From Ignavibacteria bacterium (GTDB lineage: Bacteria; Bacteroidota; Ignavibacteria; UBA10030): a stretch of 64,000 nt of DNA. The position numbers and the translations under genes were made by a program. This document shows positions 4,055 to 63,998 of the stretch, in pieces. Numbering within the stretch: position 1 is the stretch's first letter; every line of letters begins with the position of its first letter. Location of the stretch: assembly GCA_016873805.1 (NCBI GenBank), contig VGVZ01000005.1, positions 106,689-170,688 on the forward strand. The letters run 5' to 3'. The notes beneath the pieces are model-generated. The model had not been told where the DNA came from. It ran no database searches and worked only from the letters and a program-made list of their open reading frames with translations.

Positions 4055-5704
4055 CTAGAGGTGCATTTTGACCACCTGATGCCGATGCTTGTCGACGATC
4101 AGTTCATCTTTGAGCCAACGCAGAAAATCGAGCCCATATTTGTTAAGGAAGTGAACGATGCTTAGCTCACGTTCCTGAAGATTGGAGAAAGGAAAGAGAT
4201 GGAGATGAGCTTTGTCAATTTGTCGTAACGTGGCCTCGCCTGCTCGTTTCTGGGCCGCGATGGCCTTGTGCTTGAGATTCTCGATCTGATAGCTGATTTT
4301 GTTTTTTGCTGTCGCGACTCCCCCCGCGAGTGTGGGGTCGATCTGCGAAAGTCCCTGTTGGAGAATCTCCAGCGATTCATTCAATCCTGCAATAGTCCCG
4401 CCAAACAACTCCTCAAGCCTTACATCGGACAATCGACCGGCGACAGTCTCGCCGAGCATTTCCCGATCGCCAAAGAAGTCCTTTACCTCCAGGGAGTATT
4501 TCTCGAGTACTCGTTGAACCCGCTCTTCGATGATCGTGACACTTGCGCGAGGGAAGAGAATGGGCATTTGAATGCCAAATTCCGCATAGACTGTCTGTAG
4601 CTGCGCGAAGTAGGAGATTTCTGCTGGTCCCGCGACGTAGCACGCGGTGGGGAGTAATGCATCCTGGCAAATAGGGCGCAACGCGACGTTTGGACTGAAG
4701 AGTTCTGGATTATTTTCAAGCATCTCCGTCAGGGCCTCCTTTGAGTGTCGCTGGCGTGTGCCCTTCAATGAGTACCCCAGGGGATGGGGTTCGATGAGAT
4801 GTCGGCCTCCCTTGTGGAAGAGGAAGAGGTTGATCGGCTTCGGCTTAATCTGAGCGAGATAGTGTTTTTCCAGTTCTACACTCGCGCCGATCATCAGCGT
4901 GCAAGTCTTTGGCGCGTGCTCGATCTCCCGTCGAAAAAGAGGTTTGAGAAGTTGCTTGATCGCGGGATCGTTCGGATCGAGGAAGATGAGACCGGAATCT
5001 TCGAGAAGATCATTCATCAGGTGGACAAATGATCGATTGAACGTCATGCCTTTCTGATAGGCCGTTCGCAGAAGGGACATAACTTGCGGCGTGAATTCCG
5101 TTTCCAGCAACGAGGCGTGGAGTTGATTGATGAGGGAGTCGATCGTCTCATCGAATTCGATTCGGCCAACGGCTCCGTAGTTCGCATCGTCCTTAGCGGT
5201 TTCCGGATTGTACGATGCCTTCAAGAGATTGTTGTCTTTGTCAATGACGTTGATGGAGCGAACCTCTTCAAAGTCATGATCCTCCCCCTCCAGCCAAAAT
5301 ACTGGAACAAAACTGTAGTCGGGGTACCGTGCAGAGAGTTGTTCCGTAAGCTTGATGGTCGTGAGGGCCTTGTATATCGTATAGAGCGGTCCGGTGAAGA
5401 TTCCAACCTGCTGGCCGGTGACAACGGCCACCGTGTTGTCGTTCAGGAGGGCATCGATGTTGGCAAGTGTCCGCACGCCGCAGTGGAATGCACGGTTCTG
5501 CAAGGAGAGGATGTTGACGAGCGTTGAACGGTCGAGTGTTCGCTGCGAGGCAGTAGTGATGCTGCGCTCCCATGCGCGGGGATCCCGAAAATCCGATTCG
5601 TAGTATTCGTGTACGCGTTCATAGTTCGTTACGTAATCCACGAAGAGTTTCGAGAATGCCGTGGAGGCTGATTGGATCTCGCGGTAATCAAGCCACTGAT
5701 TCAT
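4055..5704 (-). CDS. bshC: Bacillithiol biosynthesis cysteine-adding enzyme BshC
   Basis: NDNTVAVVTGQQVGIFTGPLYTIYKALTTIKL and FVPVFWLEGEDHDFEEV are BshC hallmarks. Confidence 0.93.
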   Translation of the reverse strand: MNQWLDYREIQSASTAFSKLFVDYVTNYERVHEYYESDFRDPRAWERSITTASQRTLDRSTLVNILSLQNRAFHCGVRTLANIDALLNDNTVAVVTGQQVGIFTGPLYTIYKALTTIKLTEQLSARYPDYSFVPVFWLEGEDHDFEEVRSINVIDKDNNLLKASYNPETAKDDANYGAVGRIEFDETIDSLINQLHASLLETEFTPQVMSLLRTAYQKGMTFNRSFVHLMNDLLEDSGLIFLDPNDPAIKQLLKPLFRREIEHAPKTCTLMIGASVELEKHYLAQIKPKPINLFLFHKGGRHLIEPHPLGYSLKGTRQRHSKEALTEMLENNPELFSPNVALRPICQDALLPTACYVAGPAEISYFAQLQTVYAEFGIQMPILFPRASVTIIEERVQRVLEKYSLEVKDFFGDREMLGETVAGRLSDVRLEELFGGTIAGLNESLEILQQGLSQIDPTLAGGVATAKNKISYQIENLKHKAIAAQKRAGEATLRQIDKAHLHLFPFSNLQERELSIVHFLNKYGLDFLRWLKDELIVDKHRHQVVKMHL

Positions 5705-57567: not shown

Positions 57568-58464
57568 TCAGAGTGAAATGCTCAGCGTGGCGAGATGAGC
57601 GTCGCCCAATCCGAACTTGAACGGAACGTAGCCATAGTCAAGGGCGATTGTTCTATAGACGACGCCTAATCCGGTTGACAATCCTCTCGCCTCGGAACCG
57701 CCATGATAGCCAAACCTTAAGGAGAGATACTTCTGGTAGGTCGCTTCAAGGCCGACGCTCATGTAGCTTGTGATGTCGGCCAGATTACTGACATATGCGG
57801 GGTAGAAGGCCAGATCAAAATCGTCGATCGACCGTGAATATTGTGCACCCAAATGGAGGCGGGAAGGGAGATCTCCCGGCATATTCCGAAAGGCGGAGAC
57901 AGAACCGACGTTTGTGAGGGAAGCGGCTACAACGACACCAGGAATCTTCGTCAGATAAGTCATTCCAAGGTCGACCGCGTAACCTGTCGTTTCGTCAATA
58001 TAGATTTTTTCGTACAGGTATTTTCCGCTCACTCCCGCGACGACGTCAGGTCCAACCGATGTCGCGAGCGAAACACCCATGCTGGCAAACTGAGCCGCAA
58101 ACGATCCAAGCGATTCGCCTGGTTGCGTGCGGATTTCGATGCCCGTCACCCGAGACGAGGAGACGGAGAGACCCACGGTGGTGCCAAAAAGAGGGAATCG
58201 GACTCCGACGAGTTCGGTGCTCACGTCTTGAATCCACGCGCTGTGCCCAAGGAGAATATCGGTTTGGGATTCAGCATTGAGCGACGCCGGGTTCACGAGG
58301 AACGAGGAAAAATGGCCGCGATCGGCAACGACCGACTCACCGAGCGCCGCGGCCCGAGCGCTAACCGGGAATTTGAGGTACACCGATCCTACGGCCGTCC
58401 CCTGCGCGAGCGCTGATGCAACGATCGATCCTGCAAGAAGCAACGTAACTGCGGATTTCTTCAT
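57568..58464 (-). CDS. PorV/PorQ-family outer-membrane protein
   Basis: GSVYLKFPVSARAAALGESVVADRGHFSSFLVNPASLNAESQTDILLGHSAWIQD; beta-barrel pattern. Confidence 0.78.
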   Translation of the reverse strand: MKKSAVTLLLAGSIVASALAQGTAVGSVYLKFPVSARAAALGESVVADRGHFSSFLVNPASLNAESQTDILLGHSAWIQDVSTELVGVRFPLFGTTVGLSVSSSRVTGIEIRTQPGESLGSFAAQFASMGVSLATSVGPDVVAGVSGKYLYEKIYIDETTGYAVDLGMTYLTKIPGVVVAASLTNVGSVSAFRNMPGDLPSRLHLGAQYSRSIDDFDLAFYPAYVSNLADITSYMSVGLEATYQKYLSLRFGYHGGSEARGLSTGLGVVYRTIALDYGYVPFKFGLGDAHLATLSISL

Positions 58465-58571
58465 GGCAAAGTCGGTTTCAAATCAAGATCGGGACATCTT
58501 CTGCTGGCACGACGGCGAGCATTGTGCACAAGATAGAAAAAGAAGTTCGAAGACGAAAGCCACGGGATGGG

Positions 58572-59558
58572 CTATTCGAATCGTACGGAGAGAGACACAA
58601 AGTGCATCCCTCCGGAACCATAGGGATCGTGAACAAAGGCATAGGAAATCCCGGGTCGCCAGGTTTCGTACGATGACTCAAATGAAAAACCGAGCGAAAT
58701 CCGGGGGAGGAGATTCTCCTTCCATGTCAATTGATCGATGCCTGCGCGGATTTGAAACTGCTCCGCAAGCGTCATGTTGGCGCCTAATCGGACGATGGGA
58801 AGCGAGCCGATGTATTCAAACTCAGCACCTGCCATGAGGCCGATCTGAGCATGCTCGTAGCCCAGCGACAGCTTACGTCTCAAAGGAAAACGATCGGTCA
58901 TCGAGTTGCCGCTGTTTCCGTAGAGGGGTGAAGTATCCCACCTGTACTTCGAGCTGATATCATGTATCACCGCGCCGACGCTCCACTGAGGATGCAGTCT
59001 CATCATGACGCCAACGTCGAAACCAACGGTCGTGGAGGAGACATCTTCGTAAAGCGAATAGTAGAAGATCTTGGGAGACAGGCCTATCGCCATCCATTCA
59101 TTCGGCTTGAGACCAAACGAAAAGACAAATGCGTTTTCAGATGTGGAATAGATTTCCGTGGGACGCCCATCCCGATCGCGCCCCTGGATATCCCCCACGC
59201 CCGCGTTAATAACCCCGAATGAAATTCCCGCCTTCGGAGGGAGTCGTCGCGCGTAACCAACGAAATTGAGATTCCGATCCAGCGTGAGAAGCCCCAGTGT
59301 GGCGCTCGCGTACGGATGGTCCAGGAAAGCGGTGAGTGCGGGATTGTAGTACCCTGCGCTTGCCGATGACGGAAGTGCAGAAACGGCATTGCCCATCCCA
59401 GGACCAATTGCCCCAAAGCCGAACCGAAACGCGGGAGCCGGTTGTCCCCCTAAGGAAGACCTGGGTTGAGCCAGGAGGACGCGCTGCGGGTCCAGACTGC
59501 AGGCTCCAACGATGAGGAACAAGGCGCATGCAAGAGTCTTGCCACTATTGTACGACAT
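58572..59558 (-). CDS. PorV-like outer-membrane beta-barrel protein
   Basis: GFGAIGPGMGNAVSALPSSASAGYYNPALTAFLDHPYASATLGLLTLDRNLNFVGYARRLPPKAGISFGVIN; start at ATG 59558. Confidence 0.75.
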   Translation of the reverse strand: MSYNSGKTLACALFLIVGACSLDPQRVLLAQPRSSLGGQPAPAFRFGFGAIGPGMGNAVSALPSSASAGYYNPALTAFLDHPYASATLGLLTLDRNLNFVGYARRLPPKAGISFGVINAGVGDIQGRDRDGRPTEIYSTSENAFVFSFGLKPNEWMAIGLSPKIFYYSLYEDVSSTTVGFDVGVMMRLHPQWSVGAVIHDISSKYRWDTSPLYGNSGNSMTDRFPLRRKLSLGYEHAQIGLMAGAEFEYIGSLPIVRLGANMTLAEQFQIRAGIDQLTWKENLLPRISLGFSFESSYETWRPGISYAFVHDPYGSGGMHFVSLSVRFE

Positions 59559-61089
59559 GGATCTTCCCCCAAATGGAATCCTTGTTTTCAATGTCGACAC
59601 GATAGAAATAGACGCCGTTGGCGACGCGGCGATTGAAATCATCCTTTCCATTCCACAACTCATCGTGCTCGAGATCTCCCGAACGGACTGCGTTCTCGAT
59701 TATCGTCCTCACAGGGATCATAGCAAAATCAAACACCCGGATGGTCACGGGCGCAGTCTTCCCGGAGGTGGAATAGTGAATCCGTACCACTTCGTCATCC
59801 GGCGAAAACGGTGTCGGGTATGCATATGTCCGTCCGCTCGATCCGACGGGTTCGTACGTTCGAAAGATCTTCCACAGAGATCCAAACGGTGTGGACGGAT
59901 GATCCACCGTATAAGCGATTCCTTCGGTGCCCGACATCCAGAGGGTGTCACCCTTCGTCGCTACTGCATATGTTGTCCGATATGCGAACCGCTGTCTGGT
60001 GTTCAGGTCAACAATCGATCCGCTCCTGATCCAGGTCTTTCCGATATCCGCCGATCGAAAGAGTCCGTTGTTGGTCGCGACATACACGATCGAATCCCTG
60101 AAGGCGATGTTGTGCGCGCGCTCCCCCAGGAGAGTGGTGCTCCACGTTTCACCCCCGTCGCTGGTGAAGCTGACACCCTGACGTTCGTTCGCATCTCGAG
60201 TATTGACCGTGGCTGCCCAGAGGATGCGCTTGCCCGACAACACCTGCTCGTTGATCGCCACAACCCAATTTCCGGAGATCGGCTTCAGCTGGTTTTGAGC
60301 GGTGAATTTTCTCCAGCTGATACCTCCATCTGTGGATTTGTTGATTCCGCCGGACGTTCCTACCCATATCGTGGAATCGCTCGACGCATACACCGAGAAT
60401 GCGATGTGATTCAGATTCTCCTGTAATCCCAGTCTGCCGCTTGACGGCGAGAGATCGAAATTCAGGGTATCCGTCGGCGCGATTCGATCAATTGGCCCAT
60501 CAGGAGGAAGAATCACTCTATGCCATGTCCTCCCGTGATCCGTGGATTTGCGAAACATCCCTCCAAACGAAGTGATCCAAACCGTATTGCGCGTGAGGGC
60601 GATGTCGAACGTAATATTCTGCTCCGGGACCGTGACTGCCAGGGCCCGAATCTTGTTGATTCCGTACGTCAGCGTATCGACCGTTCCGCTATCCATGGGC
60701 TGCTTCACATAGCTCCACGCATTTCCACGGTCCGTCGAGACGTGAAGACCTCCGCCGATCTGGATTGTCGATCCATCGCGCCGTTCGGAGTATCCTATCG
60801 CGACCCAAACGGTATCCCCGCGCGTCGCGATTGCGGAAATGCCCTTGTAGTCAAACGGTGGCACCGCCGCAAAGTGTGTCCAGGTCTGGCCGCTGTTCGT
60901 GGTTCGGGACAATCCTCTGGCAGTGCCAAACCAGAGCATCCCGCGATCATGCACCGCTACACTCGCGGAATTGCTGAGCGGGAGTCCGGCATCACTTGCC
61001 GGGGATCCAAGCTCAAATGTATTGATGATCTGTCCGTTCAGGGTGAAGGAGATCACATGGACGAGGATCAAGATCGATACTTGTTTCAC
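59545..61089 (-). CDS. Exported BNR/sialidase-like beta-propeller protein with C-terminal FlgD-Ig-like domain
   Basis: Repeated SxDxGxTW motifs (TTNSGQTWTHF, STDHGRTWHRV, STDGGISWRKF, TSDGGETWSTT, SADIGKTWIRS); C-terminal RNDFNRRVANGVYFYRVDI-type module. Confidence 0.82.
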   Translation of the reverse strand: MKQVSILILVHVISFTLNGQIINTFELGSPASDAGLPLSNSASVAVHDRGMLWFGTARGLSRTTNSGQTWTHFAAVPPFDYKGISAIATRGDTVWVAIGYSERRDGSTIQIGGGLHVSTDRGNAWSYVKQPMDSGTVDTLTYGINKIRALAVTVPEQNITFDIALTRNTVWITSFGGMFRKSTDHGRTWHRVILPPDGPIDRIAPTDTLNFDLSPSSGRLGLQENLNHIAFSVYASSDSTIWVGTSGGINKSTDGGISWRKFTAQNQLKPISGNWVVAINEQVLSGKRILWAATVNTRDANERQGVSFTSDGGETWSTTLLGERAHNIAFRDSIVYVATNNGLFRSADIGKTWIRSGSIVDLNTRQRFAYRTTYAVATKGDTLWMSGTEGIAYTVDHPSTPFGSLWKIFRTYEPVGSSGRTYAYPTPFSPDDEVVRIHYSTSGKTAPVTIRVFDFAMIPVRTIIENAVRSGDLEHDELWNGKDDFNRRVANGVYFYRVDIENKDSIWGKIHVVQ

Positions 61090-61958
61090 GGGCGCACGGA
61101 AATGTGATGGGTGATTGTGTTGCTTGCCGCATCAGACCGATCGATCGCCTGAAACACGAATCGGTATAGACCAGCGGTTGTTGTCGGCGGGAGAACAACC
61201 GTGAGACTGTAGATGCCGTCCCCCTTTGTCTTGTCGCCGCTTCGGATGTCGGGCTGCGAAATGATCGCTTCGCTTCCGTCATCGTACATGGCAAACGGAT
61301 TACCGCTCGAGGTGGACCCGTCGGGTCTGAATGAGTTGAATGATACTCTCTTGATATCTGCCAATCCATCCGGATCGGTGGCCCGTACCTGGAGCAGCAG
61401 AAACTGATTCTGGGTCCCCAACCGGAGCGTGTCGGGAGCGATCAGGTCGGAAAGTTGTGGAGGTTGATTGAGGCGGACGAGAGAGAGTGGGATGCGGTGA
61501 GCTGGGCTGGTCAGACCGTATTGGGAAGTCGCCCATACGTCGGCCTGAAATGTTCCCACCACAGATCGTACGATTTGGAATTCGATCCGTCCTGCAAAGA
61601 CGGCGTCCCCCTTCACGTGGTCGGGGGAGACCCCGTCGTCCCGCAATTTCCCGGCACTATGCAGACTTGTCCGATCCTGGTTCCAGAGCTCATACTCCAC
61701 GCTCTGCTCCGCAGATCCTATGTCTGATCTCCGGAGTGCGGCGCGGGCTGTCACCGTAAGCTTCAGTGTGTCGGTTCCCTTTCTCTCCGATCCGACCATC
61801 ACGGTGTCCGTGTTGATGATTCCCGGCTGCAGGATTGCGTATTCGAGGCGTCCGACGCTGAGGCTAGAATCCAGAATCGACTCCGACTTCTTCTCGCACG
61901 ACGCAAGAACCAGCAGAAGAAGGGGGATCAAGTGACGAGCGTATGCCTGGAATCGCAA
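61086..61958 (-). CDS. Lipoprotein with Ig-like/choice-of-anchor-type domains, unknown function
   Basis: LLLLVLASCEKK lipobox; DDGVSPDHVKGDAVFAGRIEF and YDDGSEAIISQPDIRSGDKTKGDGIYSLTVVLP repeats; 4-nt overlap with the downstream gene. Confidence 0.65.
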   Translation of the reverse strand: MRFQAYARHLIPLLLLVLASCEKKSESILDSSLSVGRLEYAILQPGIINTDTVMVGSERKGTDTLKLTVTARAALRRSDIGSAEQSVEYELWNQDRTSLHSAGKLRDDGVSPDHVKGDAVFAGRIEFQIVRSVVGTFQADVWATSQYGLTSPAHRIPLSLVRLNQPPQLSDLIAPDTLRLGTQNQFLLLQVRATDPDGLADIKRVSFNSFRPDGSTSSGNPFAMYDDGSEAIISQPDIRSGDKTKGDGIYSLTVVLPPTTTAGLYRFVFQAIDRSDAASNTITHHISVRP

Positions 61959-62166: not shown

Positions 62167-62313
62167 TAGCAGGTTGTTGAAAAAGTGTTTTTCTGTCATT
62201 CTGAAGGAGCGAAGCGACTGAAGAATCTCGCTTTATGAGTCAGATTCTTCATCCCGCTAATAAACAGCGGGATTCAGAATGACATTGGACCTCGTTTTTC
62301 AACAGCCTGTTAG
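62167..62313. repeat. Dispersed multi-hairpin element, copy 2 (147 bp)
   Basis: TAGCAGGTTGTTGAAAAAG…TGTCATTCTGAA…TGAAGAATCT…AGATTCTTCA…CCCGCT…AGCGGG…TTCAGAATGACA…TTTTTCAACAGCCTGTTAG. Confidence 0.92.
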
Positions 62314-63338
62314 TAGAAGACGGTGAATGGAACAAAGGAGAAACAGATGACAAACAGAAAGAGACACCCCCATCCAATCCACATGCGTCGTTCATCGAGG
62401 GGAGTCTCGTCCGGCACAGGTGGATGATACAGCTTAACCAAAAAGTACGATATCAGCGCCCAGAGAAACCAGCCGCTCCAGCTGTATTCAACAAACGGGA
62501 GAATATGACCCGGAACATCCCCGGAGACAAATCCTACGGCCAGCTGGAGCAGGATATCGGCTACCGAGGGGAGACCAAGGAAGAGGAGGAGAATGAATGC
62601 GGCGCGTGCGATCTTTCTGTGCTGATCACCAAACATTGTGTAGACGAGATGGCCTCCGTCGAATTGGCCGATCGGGAAGAGGTTCATCGCGGTCACAAAG
62701 AGTCCAAACCAGCCCACGCACAGGGCAGGATAGTGATAGATCTCAGACATCGGTGGGACGAACTGAGTCGATGGATCGGTGAAGAGATACACGAGGAATT
62801 TGAATGCGAGAGTCTGACCGAATTCAAGTCCGAGACCCTGGCTTCCGGGGATTGCGTTCAATTGGAAATCGTAATCCGGATGCATTTGGAGAATGAACTC
62901 CGGCCCCGGGAGCGTCAGAAGCCCGTAGACCAGAACAATGACGGTCGCCACAAAACCGGCGATCGGACCACCGACACCGATGTCGAACATCGCTTTCCTG
63001 CTCGGGACGACCGAACGGGTGCGGATGACGGCTCCCAACGTACCGAAGTTGAGAAAACCGGGAACGGGTGGGAATGGGATGAAGAAGGGGAGTGTTGCTT
63101 TGACACGATGATAGCGCGCGGCAAAGTAGTGGCCGAACTCGTGTGCACCAAGGACAAAAAGAATCGCAATCGAATACTCGAGCCCGTGGTGGAAGTACCT
63201 CAGTTCGAACGCGTCGAGATTCTTCCATTGAACACCTGCGACGGTTGCGGTGAAGAACGTGAGGAGGAAAAGGCCGAGATTGATCAGGAGACGGGGATCA
63301 AACGATGCAGAGGGGGAGGCAGATGATTCCTGGTCCAT
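62310..63338 (-). CDS. Site-2 protease family (M50) membrane metalloprotease
   Basis: VLGAHEFGHYFAARYHRVKATLPFFIPFPP (HExGH), NLFPIGQFDGGHLVYTMFG. Confidence 0.92.
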   Translation of the reverse strand: MDQESSASPSASFDPRLLINLGLFLLTFFTATVAGVQWKNLDAFELRYFHHGLEYSIAILFVLGAHEFGHYFAARYHRVKATLPFFIPFPPVPGFLNFGTLGAVIRTRSVVPSRKAMFDIGVGGPIAGFVATVIVLVYGLLTLPGPEFILQMHPDYDFQLNAIPGSQGLGLEFGQTLAFKFLVYLFTDPSTQFVPPMSEIYHYPALCVGWFGLFVTAMNLFPIGQFDGGHLVYTMFGDQHRKIARAAFILLLFLGLPSVADILLQLAVGFVSGDVPGHILPFVEYSWSGWFLWALISYFLVKLYHPPVPDETPLDERRMWIGWGCLFLFVICFSFVPFTVFY

Positions 63339-63412
63339 TCCGATTGTCCGTGTGAGCCGATATGCTTACGTGAAGATACGGAAGATTGCCTTCCGATACA
63401 TAGAAAAATGCG

Positions 63413-63441
63413 GCAGCAGGGAAGCTCGAACCTGCTGCCGC
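63413..63441 (-). terminator. Hairpin between the repeat-protein gene and the M50 protease gene
   Basis: GGCAGCAGG-GAAGCTCGAA-CCTGCTGCC 9-bp stem; weak T-tract, so tentative. Confidence 0.4.
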
Positions 63442-63479: not shown

Positions 63480-63998
63480 CTAGATCGCAGTCGGCCGGGG
63501 AATATCGCTCGGAGCAAGTGGCCCACTGCTGCGCGCGGAAAGAACCTGAGCACGGGTCGGACGTGGGATGTCCGACGGTGCGAGCGGACCGCTGCTGCGA
63601 GTGCTAAGTTCTTGCCCGCGTGTTGGCCGAGGAATATCGGAAGGAGCAATGGGTCCACTGCTGCGTGCCGTGAGGTTTTGGACGCGCGTTGGACGAGGAA
63701 TATCTGAAGGGGCGAGCGGACCACTGCTACGAGAATCGACCAGCGTCGGTCGTGGGATGTCCGACGGTGCGAGCGGACCGCTGCTGCGAGTGCTAAGCTC
63801 TTGCCCGCGTGTTGGCCGAGGAATATCGGAAGGGGCGAGCGGACCACTGCTACGAGAATCGACCAGCCACGGTCGTGGGATGTCCGACGGAGCAATCGGT
63901 CCTCCGCTCCGCGGAGTGCTGAGAATGATGCGAGTATCCAAAGACGCATCCGTCGCCTGAGCATCCTGGACCGAAACAGAGATTCCCCAATTGGTCAC
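63480..63998 (-). CDS. Tandem-repeat protein (C-terminal array of seven RSSGP[LI]APSDIPRPT modules), probably truncated by the window edge
   Basis: In-frame 19/22-aa repeats; the frame is open to the window boundary, so the GTG at 63998 need not be the true start. Confidence 0.7.
   Translation of the reverse strand: MTNWGISVSVQDAQATDASLDTRIILSTPRSGGPIAPSDIPRPWLVDSRSSGPLAPSDIPRPTRGQELSTRSSGPLAPSDIPRPTLVDSRSSGPLAPSDIPRPTRVQNLTARSSGPIAPSDIPRPTRGQELSTRSSGPLAPSDIPRPTRAQVLSARSSGPLAPSDIPRPTAI
63486..63912. repeat. In-frame DNA tandem repeat encoding RSSGPLAPSDIPRPT modules
   Basis: Seven copies; near-identical blocks recur at 189-bp (63562 and 63751) and 123-bp (63706 and 63829) offsets. Confidence 0.9.

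Follow-up and report, generated by a model that had tools for sequence, protein, structure and literature searches.

At the end of the 64,000-nucleotide stretch of Ignavibacteria bacterium DNA analysed here (the window; G000:C5:106689-170688), a minus-strand open reading frame repeats one proline-rich peptide over and over, which raises the question of what kind of product such an array makes. A sequence-only reading of the window had counted seven modules spaced by 19 or 22 amino acids, and it offered three possible roles: a multivalent binding tail, a surface stalk, or a precursor releasing repeated peptides. We confirmed the seven modules and both spacings (Table 1), as well as the two codon spellings, GATATT and GACATC, which mostly alternate and follow the order C, T, C, T, T, C, T from module 1 to module 7. 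The core that it had called almost invariant stands in part: R[SG]SGP[LI]APSDIPRP[TW] is present in the modules, but module 1 is RSGGPIAPSDIPRPW and not the common core. Also present are the 123-bp offsets (modules 1-3 and 2-4) and 189-bp offsets (modules 2-5 and 3-6) that had been ascribed to higher-order duplication, and both follow from module spacings of 19 or 22 amino acids.

Table 1. Positions of the precursor array, its neighbours and related features; unprefixed positions refer to the window.
Feature	Position	Strand	Remark
3' part of tandem-peptide precursor gene	63480..63998	-	172 codons to contig end
Signal peptide end VTNWGISVSVQDAQA	63954..63998	-	predicted from sequence; includes N invariant in 36 aligned relatives
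Module 1 RSGGPIAPSDIPRPW	63867..63911	-	
Module 2 RSSGPLAPSDIPRPT	63810..63854	-	
Module 3 RSSGPLAPSDIPRPT	63744..63788	-	
Module 4 RSSGPLAPSDIPRPT	63687..63731	-	
Module 5 RSSGPIAPSDIPRPT	63621..63665	-	
Module 6 RSSGPLAPSDIPRPT	63555..63599	-	
Module 7 RSSGPLAPSDIPRPT	63489..63533	-	then AI and stop
Probable intrinsic terminator	63410..63441	-	11-bp G+C-rich hairpin and UUUUU, just 3' of precursor gene
M50 (site-2-protease family) membrane metalloprotease	62310..63338	-	downstream syntenic neighbour
REP- or MITE-like element	62167-62312		intergenic; 18-nt inverted ends TAGCAGGTTGTTGAAAAA / TTTTTCAACAGCCTGTTA
Envelope-protein-like ORFs	57568-61958	-	downstream synteny conserved in order
Complete precursor gene, second allele	L010:354-1019	-	contig C14
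CRP/FNR-like palindrome region	L010:1020-1200		and same intergenic region in relatives
up406, polytopic membrane protein	L010:1197-2414	+	divergent to precursor
NtrC-like AAA+/Fis regulator	L010:2482-3465	+	adjoins up406
39-aa secreted protein MKRLLVLLAIVFAVNFLIDCALASGVMNIPDPPRPGAVK	L153 (G041:C35) 4399-4518	-	phage-like contig
Secreted ORF beside up406 paralogue	L113 3468-4188	+	
Secreted ORF beside up406 paralogue	L114 about 5152-5571	-	
Secreted ORF beside up406 paralogue	L116 7396-7656	+	

The window frame has no real start and its N-terminus is cut, because contig C5 terminates exactly at the window edge; the missing part comprises the start codon and most of the signal peptide. The possibility that the frame is a spurious extension was settled by a second matching place in the same genome (C14:1-953), where the full frame was found as a second allele. 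The complete gene on C14 encodes 221 aa, comprising the signal peptide MSRSSVSMRRVRALALTVVAIFVTNWGISVSVQDAQA, a short linker, nine identical RSGGPIAPSDIPRPT modules as against seven in the window allele, AI and a stop codon. The first 127 bp of C14 are identical to window positions 63129-63255, and afterwards the two contigs diverge by single-base and repeat-number differences, which is the pattern that an assembly graph bubble between two strain alleles gives. Since the C14 copy is itself followed by the M50 start and has an exact 127-bp end in common with C5, a tandem duplication is unlikely. A promoter scan assigned a sigma-70-like TTGACA-17-AATATT promoter to the C14 precursor. The hairpin just 3' of the window gene has a predicted energy of -23.5 kcal/mol (z -4.8); the list from the promoter and terminator scan of the C14 copy, whose rule takes loops of up to 8 nt, does not contain it.

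Comparison between modules revealed that synonymous sites are saturated while the peptide is nearly invariant (pN/pS 0.02-0.10). In the window allele pS was 0.69 and pN 0.07, a ratio of 0.10, and in the C14 allele pS was 0.74 and pN 0.02. These values lie far from a ratio of 1, which had been named as the outcome that would speak against constraint on the peptide, and the proposal that selection acts on the peptide, not on the DNA, is borne out by them and by the pooled values of the family (pS 0.50, pN 0.025), for which the cores were outlined by eye, a definition that favours similar copies. The last four modules of both alleles can be paired by their codons and spacers; AGC-GAT-ATT-CCC, for example, is a module-specific spelling confined to the last module in both. 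The C14 modules carry SGGPI and the C5 modules SSGPL or SSGPI, and the matched pairs differ in G/S in four of four cases (codons GGT/AGT and GGC/AGC) and in I/L in three of four (ATC/CTC, ATT/CTC and ATC/CTT). To produce these changes, gene conversion tracts would have to span about a dozen bases; parallel change, driven by a need for uniformity among the copies, seems simpler as an explanation.

When 61 genomes were searched with the whole protein, the matches were weak, but on inspection they showed the same architecture, with a similar signal peptide and a different repeated peptide. A profile HMM built from six members (A1) found the family across the order, and one built from 36 members (A5, threshold E <= 0.003) detected the precursor architecture in 41 of the 98 genomes examined from the order. 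This architecture is a conserved signal peptide followed by one to nine copies of a species-specific proline-rich 11-14-mer, the copies being mostly K- or R-delimited and ending in P[RK]P, and each of about 40 related species has a version of the peptide of its own. Examples are KSGVMNIPDPPRP in four copies, KAGIPILPDSPRP in four copies in each of two adjacent genes, KSTVPLLPDSPRP in four, RSGPTAPEPPRP in three, SGVPVIPDSPRP in four and LASGTTSNPLPPPPT in seven; single-copy relatives occur in G016 and G145. The signal peptides follow the pattern KR.R......TN.AIS.A, in which one Asn is invariant in 36 sequences, which is unusual for a signal peptide. The precursor had no Pfam or NCBIfam match above cut-off, and a close match to a characterised repeat family, which had been named as a result that would speak against the earlier reading, was found in none of Pfam, NCBIfam and PDB. 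Tandem duplicate precursor genes were seen at L139 (G061:C702), with the same peptide in both, and at L138 (G009:C2), where two of the three copies in the second gene differ (SGPTAPPPPIP).

Several features of the precursors outline the repeated unit. In most of them K or R stands directly before a copy, and its absence from that position in six (G004, G040, G080, G085, G086 and G087) suggests that the protease may differ between lineages. Inside the cores, P comes next after K or R in 131 of 143 cases, versus 1 of 124 in the delimiters, and trypsin-like enzymes do not cut before P. This rule counts as one feature seen many times, because it comes mostly from the inherited P[RK]P ending; outside that ending about half of the internal K/R residues are followed by P. 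Moreover, the first copy comes directly after an A-x-A signal-peptidase site in G036, G060, G066, G073, G077, G033 and G058, and the last copy runs up to the stop codon in many precursors. Together, the K/R delimiters, the A-x-A starts and the stop-codon ends mark a 12-13-mer as the unit.

The precursor gene is almost always divergent to up406, and at 21 loci up406, which encodes about 380-400 aa, is followed by the gene of an NtrC-like regulator. Hydropathy and charge predict about eight transmembrane helices in up406, with both termini inside and an outer loop of about 90 residues. Its best-conserved parts, FGYQYKKDPPQGAYIEK and the C-terminal tail, are predicted to be cytoplasmic, which would suit a receptor. 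Among 21 homologues of up406 no Pfam or NCBIfam family was common to more than three or scored better than E 0.0028, neither database revealed a histidine kinase or other described receptor domain, and PDB gave no match at E <= 1. The regulator has a sigma-54 activator AAA+ domain (PF00158, E 7e-34) and a Fis-type HTH (PF02954, E 3e-14), and no receiver or ligand domain. The GAFTGA sigma-54 contact motif is absent from 15 of 15 regulator homologues, which read GVEGLPY, GVPGMPP or similar in that region, and we therefore judge ordinary sigma-54 activation unlikely; rpoN, being present in 90 of the 98 genomes, does not discriminate. TyrR, DhaR and similar homologues that lack GAFTGA depend on sigma-70, and the combination of a sigma-54-activator AAA+ domain with a Fis-type HTH is shared with these TyrR/DhaR/HupR-like activators (PMC3162934); unlike them, the regulator here has neither a receiver nor a ligand domain, and its gene adjoins that of a polytopic membrane protein.

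The conserved neighbours of the precursor are up406, the regulator, M50, envelope proteins and glycosyltransferases. We rejected M50 as a dedicated part because it is present in 77 of 98 genomes regardless of the cassette (in 40 of 41 with the precursor and 37 of 57 without it), and it is probably just a neighbour. Further downstream, the synteny conserved in the order comprises a lipoprotein-like ORF, two outer-membrane-protein-like ORFs and a beta-propeller protein with a weak CHU_C/T9SS-like end, and the inner sequence of the intergenic REP- or MITE-like element is single-copy in the window. T9SS-type neighbours point to a Bacteroidota-like lineage. Between precursor and up406, CRP/FNR-like TGTGA-N6-TCACA palindromes, a motif chosen post hoc, occur in 26 of 43 cases versus 5.7 expected. 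Small secreted proline-rich ORFs also lie beside three of nine up406 paralogues (L113, L114 and L116) and not beside the other six; these paralogues belong to one family, and the small secreted proteins have proline-rich C-termini lacking tandem repeats, possibly a second peptide type.

Over the 98 genomes, co-occurrence counts, given as both/first only/second only/neither and evaluated by Fisher's test uncorrected for relatedness, were 40/1/5/52 for precursor with up406 (p = 9e-21), 43/2/3/50 for up406 with regulator (p = 1e-21) and 39/2/7/50 for precursor with regulator; precursor and M50 were weakly linked (40/1/37/20). Most exceptions sit at contig ends: the locus is cut by a contig end in G011, which has the precursor without up406, in G067, which has the precursor with only a distant up406 paralogue and no regulator, and in four of the five genomes with up406 only. 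G064, which is 61% complete, shows a paralogue only. Each of the families f1, f5 and f6 includes both genomes that carry the cassette and genomes that lack it, and at empty sites in G005, G007, G012, G026 and G053 a 541-aa gene, which in the genome of the window lies 3' of the regulator, is immediately adjacent to M50. These empty sites indicate that precursor, up406 and regulator come and go as a block; adjacency alone would be weak evidence, since gene order around the cassette is conserved generally. Given regulator divergence, the divergence of the peptide was weakly linked to that of up406, the candidate receptor (partial Mantel r 0.19, p 0.03), and not through the outer loop of up406 specifically (r 0.08, p 0.18). 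Outside the order up406 was found in one genus of the class only, in which the up406 of G145 has a one-copy precursor and M50 as neighbours; a 396-genome sample across the phylum yielded no up406 beyond the members of the order.

One further copy of a host peptide was encountered on C35, a 6579-bp contig with an M15 endolysin-like gene, an XhlA-like gene and weak virion-protein matches. Here the gene of the 39-aa protein sits between two C35 genes and overlaps the next start codon, and its product contains, directly after an A-L-A site, the 12-mer SGVMNIPDPPRP, an exact match to the peptide of the four-copy precursor of G041 encoded with different codons. Because C35 is short and was assigned to G041 by binning, the host link is likely, not proven. 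In the viral contigs searched, neither the precursor nor up406 nor the phage-like neighbour gene had a relative. As in phage signalling by VP882 VqmA (PMC10426928) and arbitrium (reviewed in PMC13389391), a phage-like contig carries a component of a likely host signal; unlike in those systems, it carries the signal peptide itself, in one copy with its own secretion signal, and it was seen once, on a contig only binned with the host.

The explanation that fits these results best, and that we consider probable, is that the gene encodes the pre-pro-peptide of a secreted signal, with up406 as its sensor and the NtrC-like protein as its regulator. What the sequences show directly is the architecture, peptide-level selection, linkage and joint inheritance; cleavage, sensing by up406, the regulatory output and a signalling role are deduced from them. 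We infer that the precursor would be exported by Sec and that a protease in the envelope or outside would release many identical proline-rich peptides from it, about SSGPLAPSDIPRP in the window allele and SGGPIAPSDIPRP in the other. The released peptide would act as an extracellular signal, and up406 may sense it and pass its state to the regulator. Lacking the sigma-54 contact motif, the regulator would probably work via sigma-70, as TyrR does. Of the three roles proposed at the outset, a precursor releasing repeated peptides is the best supported, because of the signal peptide, the basic delimiters and the position of copies right next to the signal-peptidase site or stop codon, and because of the single-copy relatives and the phage-like gene with one host 12-mer; a multivalent tail or a stalk explains the same facts less well.

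An array that stays uncleaved, serving on the surface or in the periplasm as a repetitive binding tail, stalk or matrix polymer, seems unlikely to us. Peptide-constrained tandem repeats are common in binding proteins, and the six precursors without a basic residue directly before their copies would suit such a role, but copy number varies from 1 to 9 with single-copy relatives, copies begin at the signal-peptidase site in several precursors, the phage-like contig has a single host 12-mer, and the array is strictly co-lost with the membrane protein and the regulator. We also find it improbable that the products are antimicrobial peptides, proline-rich or bacteriocin, with up406 conferring self-immunity and the regulator controlling expression. 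The peptides are proline-rich with PRP motifs and species-specific, tandem precursors of proline-rich antimicrobial peptides are known from insects and provide a precedent, and the linked membrane protein could be an immunity protein. However, the mature peptides are not strongly cationic as proline-rich antimicrobial peptides are, their predicted net charge being 0 in 25 of 43, +1 in 13 (thus 0 or +1 in 38 of 43) and negative in 5; the conservation of up406, highest in predicted cytoplasmic segments, suits signalling better than immunity; and PADLOC gave no match for up406 or the precursor.

A modified-peptide (RiPP) cassette with its maturation enzymes elsewhere is very unlikely, even though multi-core precursors such as those of graspetides are known and likewise hold several short core copies each (PMC8939145). 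Unlike graspetides, the precursors here begin with a signal peptide of the classical type and lack a nearby modification enzyme; the conserved partners are the membrane protein and the regulator only, no modifying enzyme being conserved in the cassette neighbourhood, and the cores contain no Cys and no conserved modifiable residues. A secretion or translation monitor, in which the cell would sense the signal peptide and the proline-rich stretches while the protein is being made or exported and no peptide is released, draws on the unusually conserved signal peptide with its invariant Asn and on the ability of proline-rich stretches to slow ribosomes, but it would not require identical copies of a peptide that differs between species, or a single copy in a phage-like operon, and is highly improbable.

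Among described systems, the Gram-positive pheromones (cAD1-type lipoprotein-derived, Agr and SHP) resemble the proposed secreted-signal cassette in that a small exported precursor adjoins a putative sensor and a regulator, and an M50 protease neighbours the precursor here. M50 proteases mature some Gram-positive peptide pheromones; unlike in those cases, M50 is found here in 77 of 98 genomes with or without the cassette. Also unlike the Gram-positive systems, the peptide is present in tandem copies behind a Sec signal peptide, and there is no histidine kinase or RRNPP regulator. In form the family also resembles fungal alpha-factor-type precursors and KEX2-processed repeat proteins (KEPs; PMC7329392, PMC9769878), with which it shares a secretory signal followed by near-identical short tandem peptides separated by basic residues, the peptide being constant within a precursor and different between species. 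Unlike the fungal proteins, the precursors here are bacterial and not homologous, Pfam and NCBIfam giving no homology to a described alpha-factor or KEP family; their delimiters are single K/R residues with no shown Kex2 site, their processing is predicted, and the linked membrane protein matches no described family. The best reading of the resemblance to yeast alpha-factor is convergence.

Taken as a whole, the proposition that this T9SS-bearing order has an undescribed class of cell-cell signalling, with alpha-factor-like precursors, a new receptor family, a sigma-54-independent AAA+/Fis regulator, a three-gene cassette gained and lost, strain peptide types (SSGPL versus SGGPI) and phages encoding the host peptide, stands in our judgement evenly balanced between right and wrong. 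The open-access literature searched contained no description of such a peptide system, and signalling by tandem protease-released peptides is described there for fungi and not for comparable bacteria; the genomes of the present lineage are drafts. If true, the proposal would supply roughly 40 predicted species-specific peptide-receptor pairs open to simultaneous testing with inexpensive synthetic 12-mers, and the undescribed up406 membrane-protein family would gain a function to search for. The peptide types of the two strains and the phage-like copy would, moreover, allow direct tests of how signal specificity and phage interference evolve.
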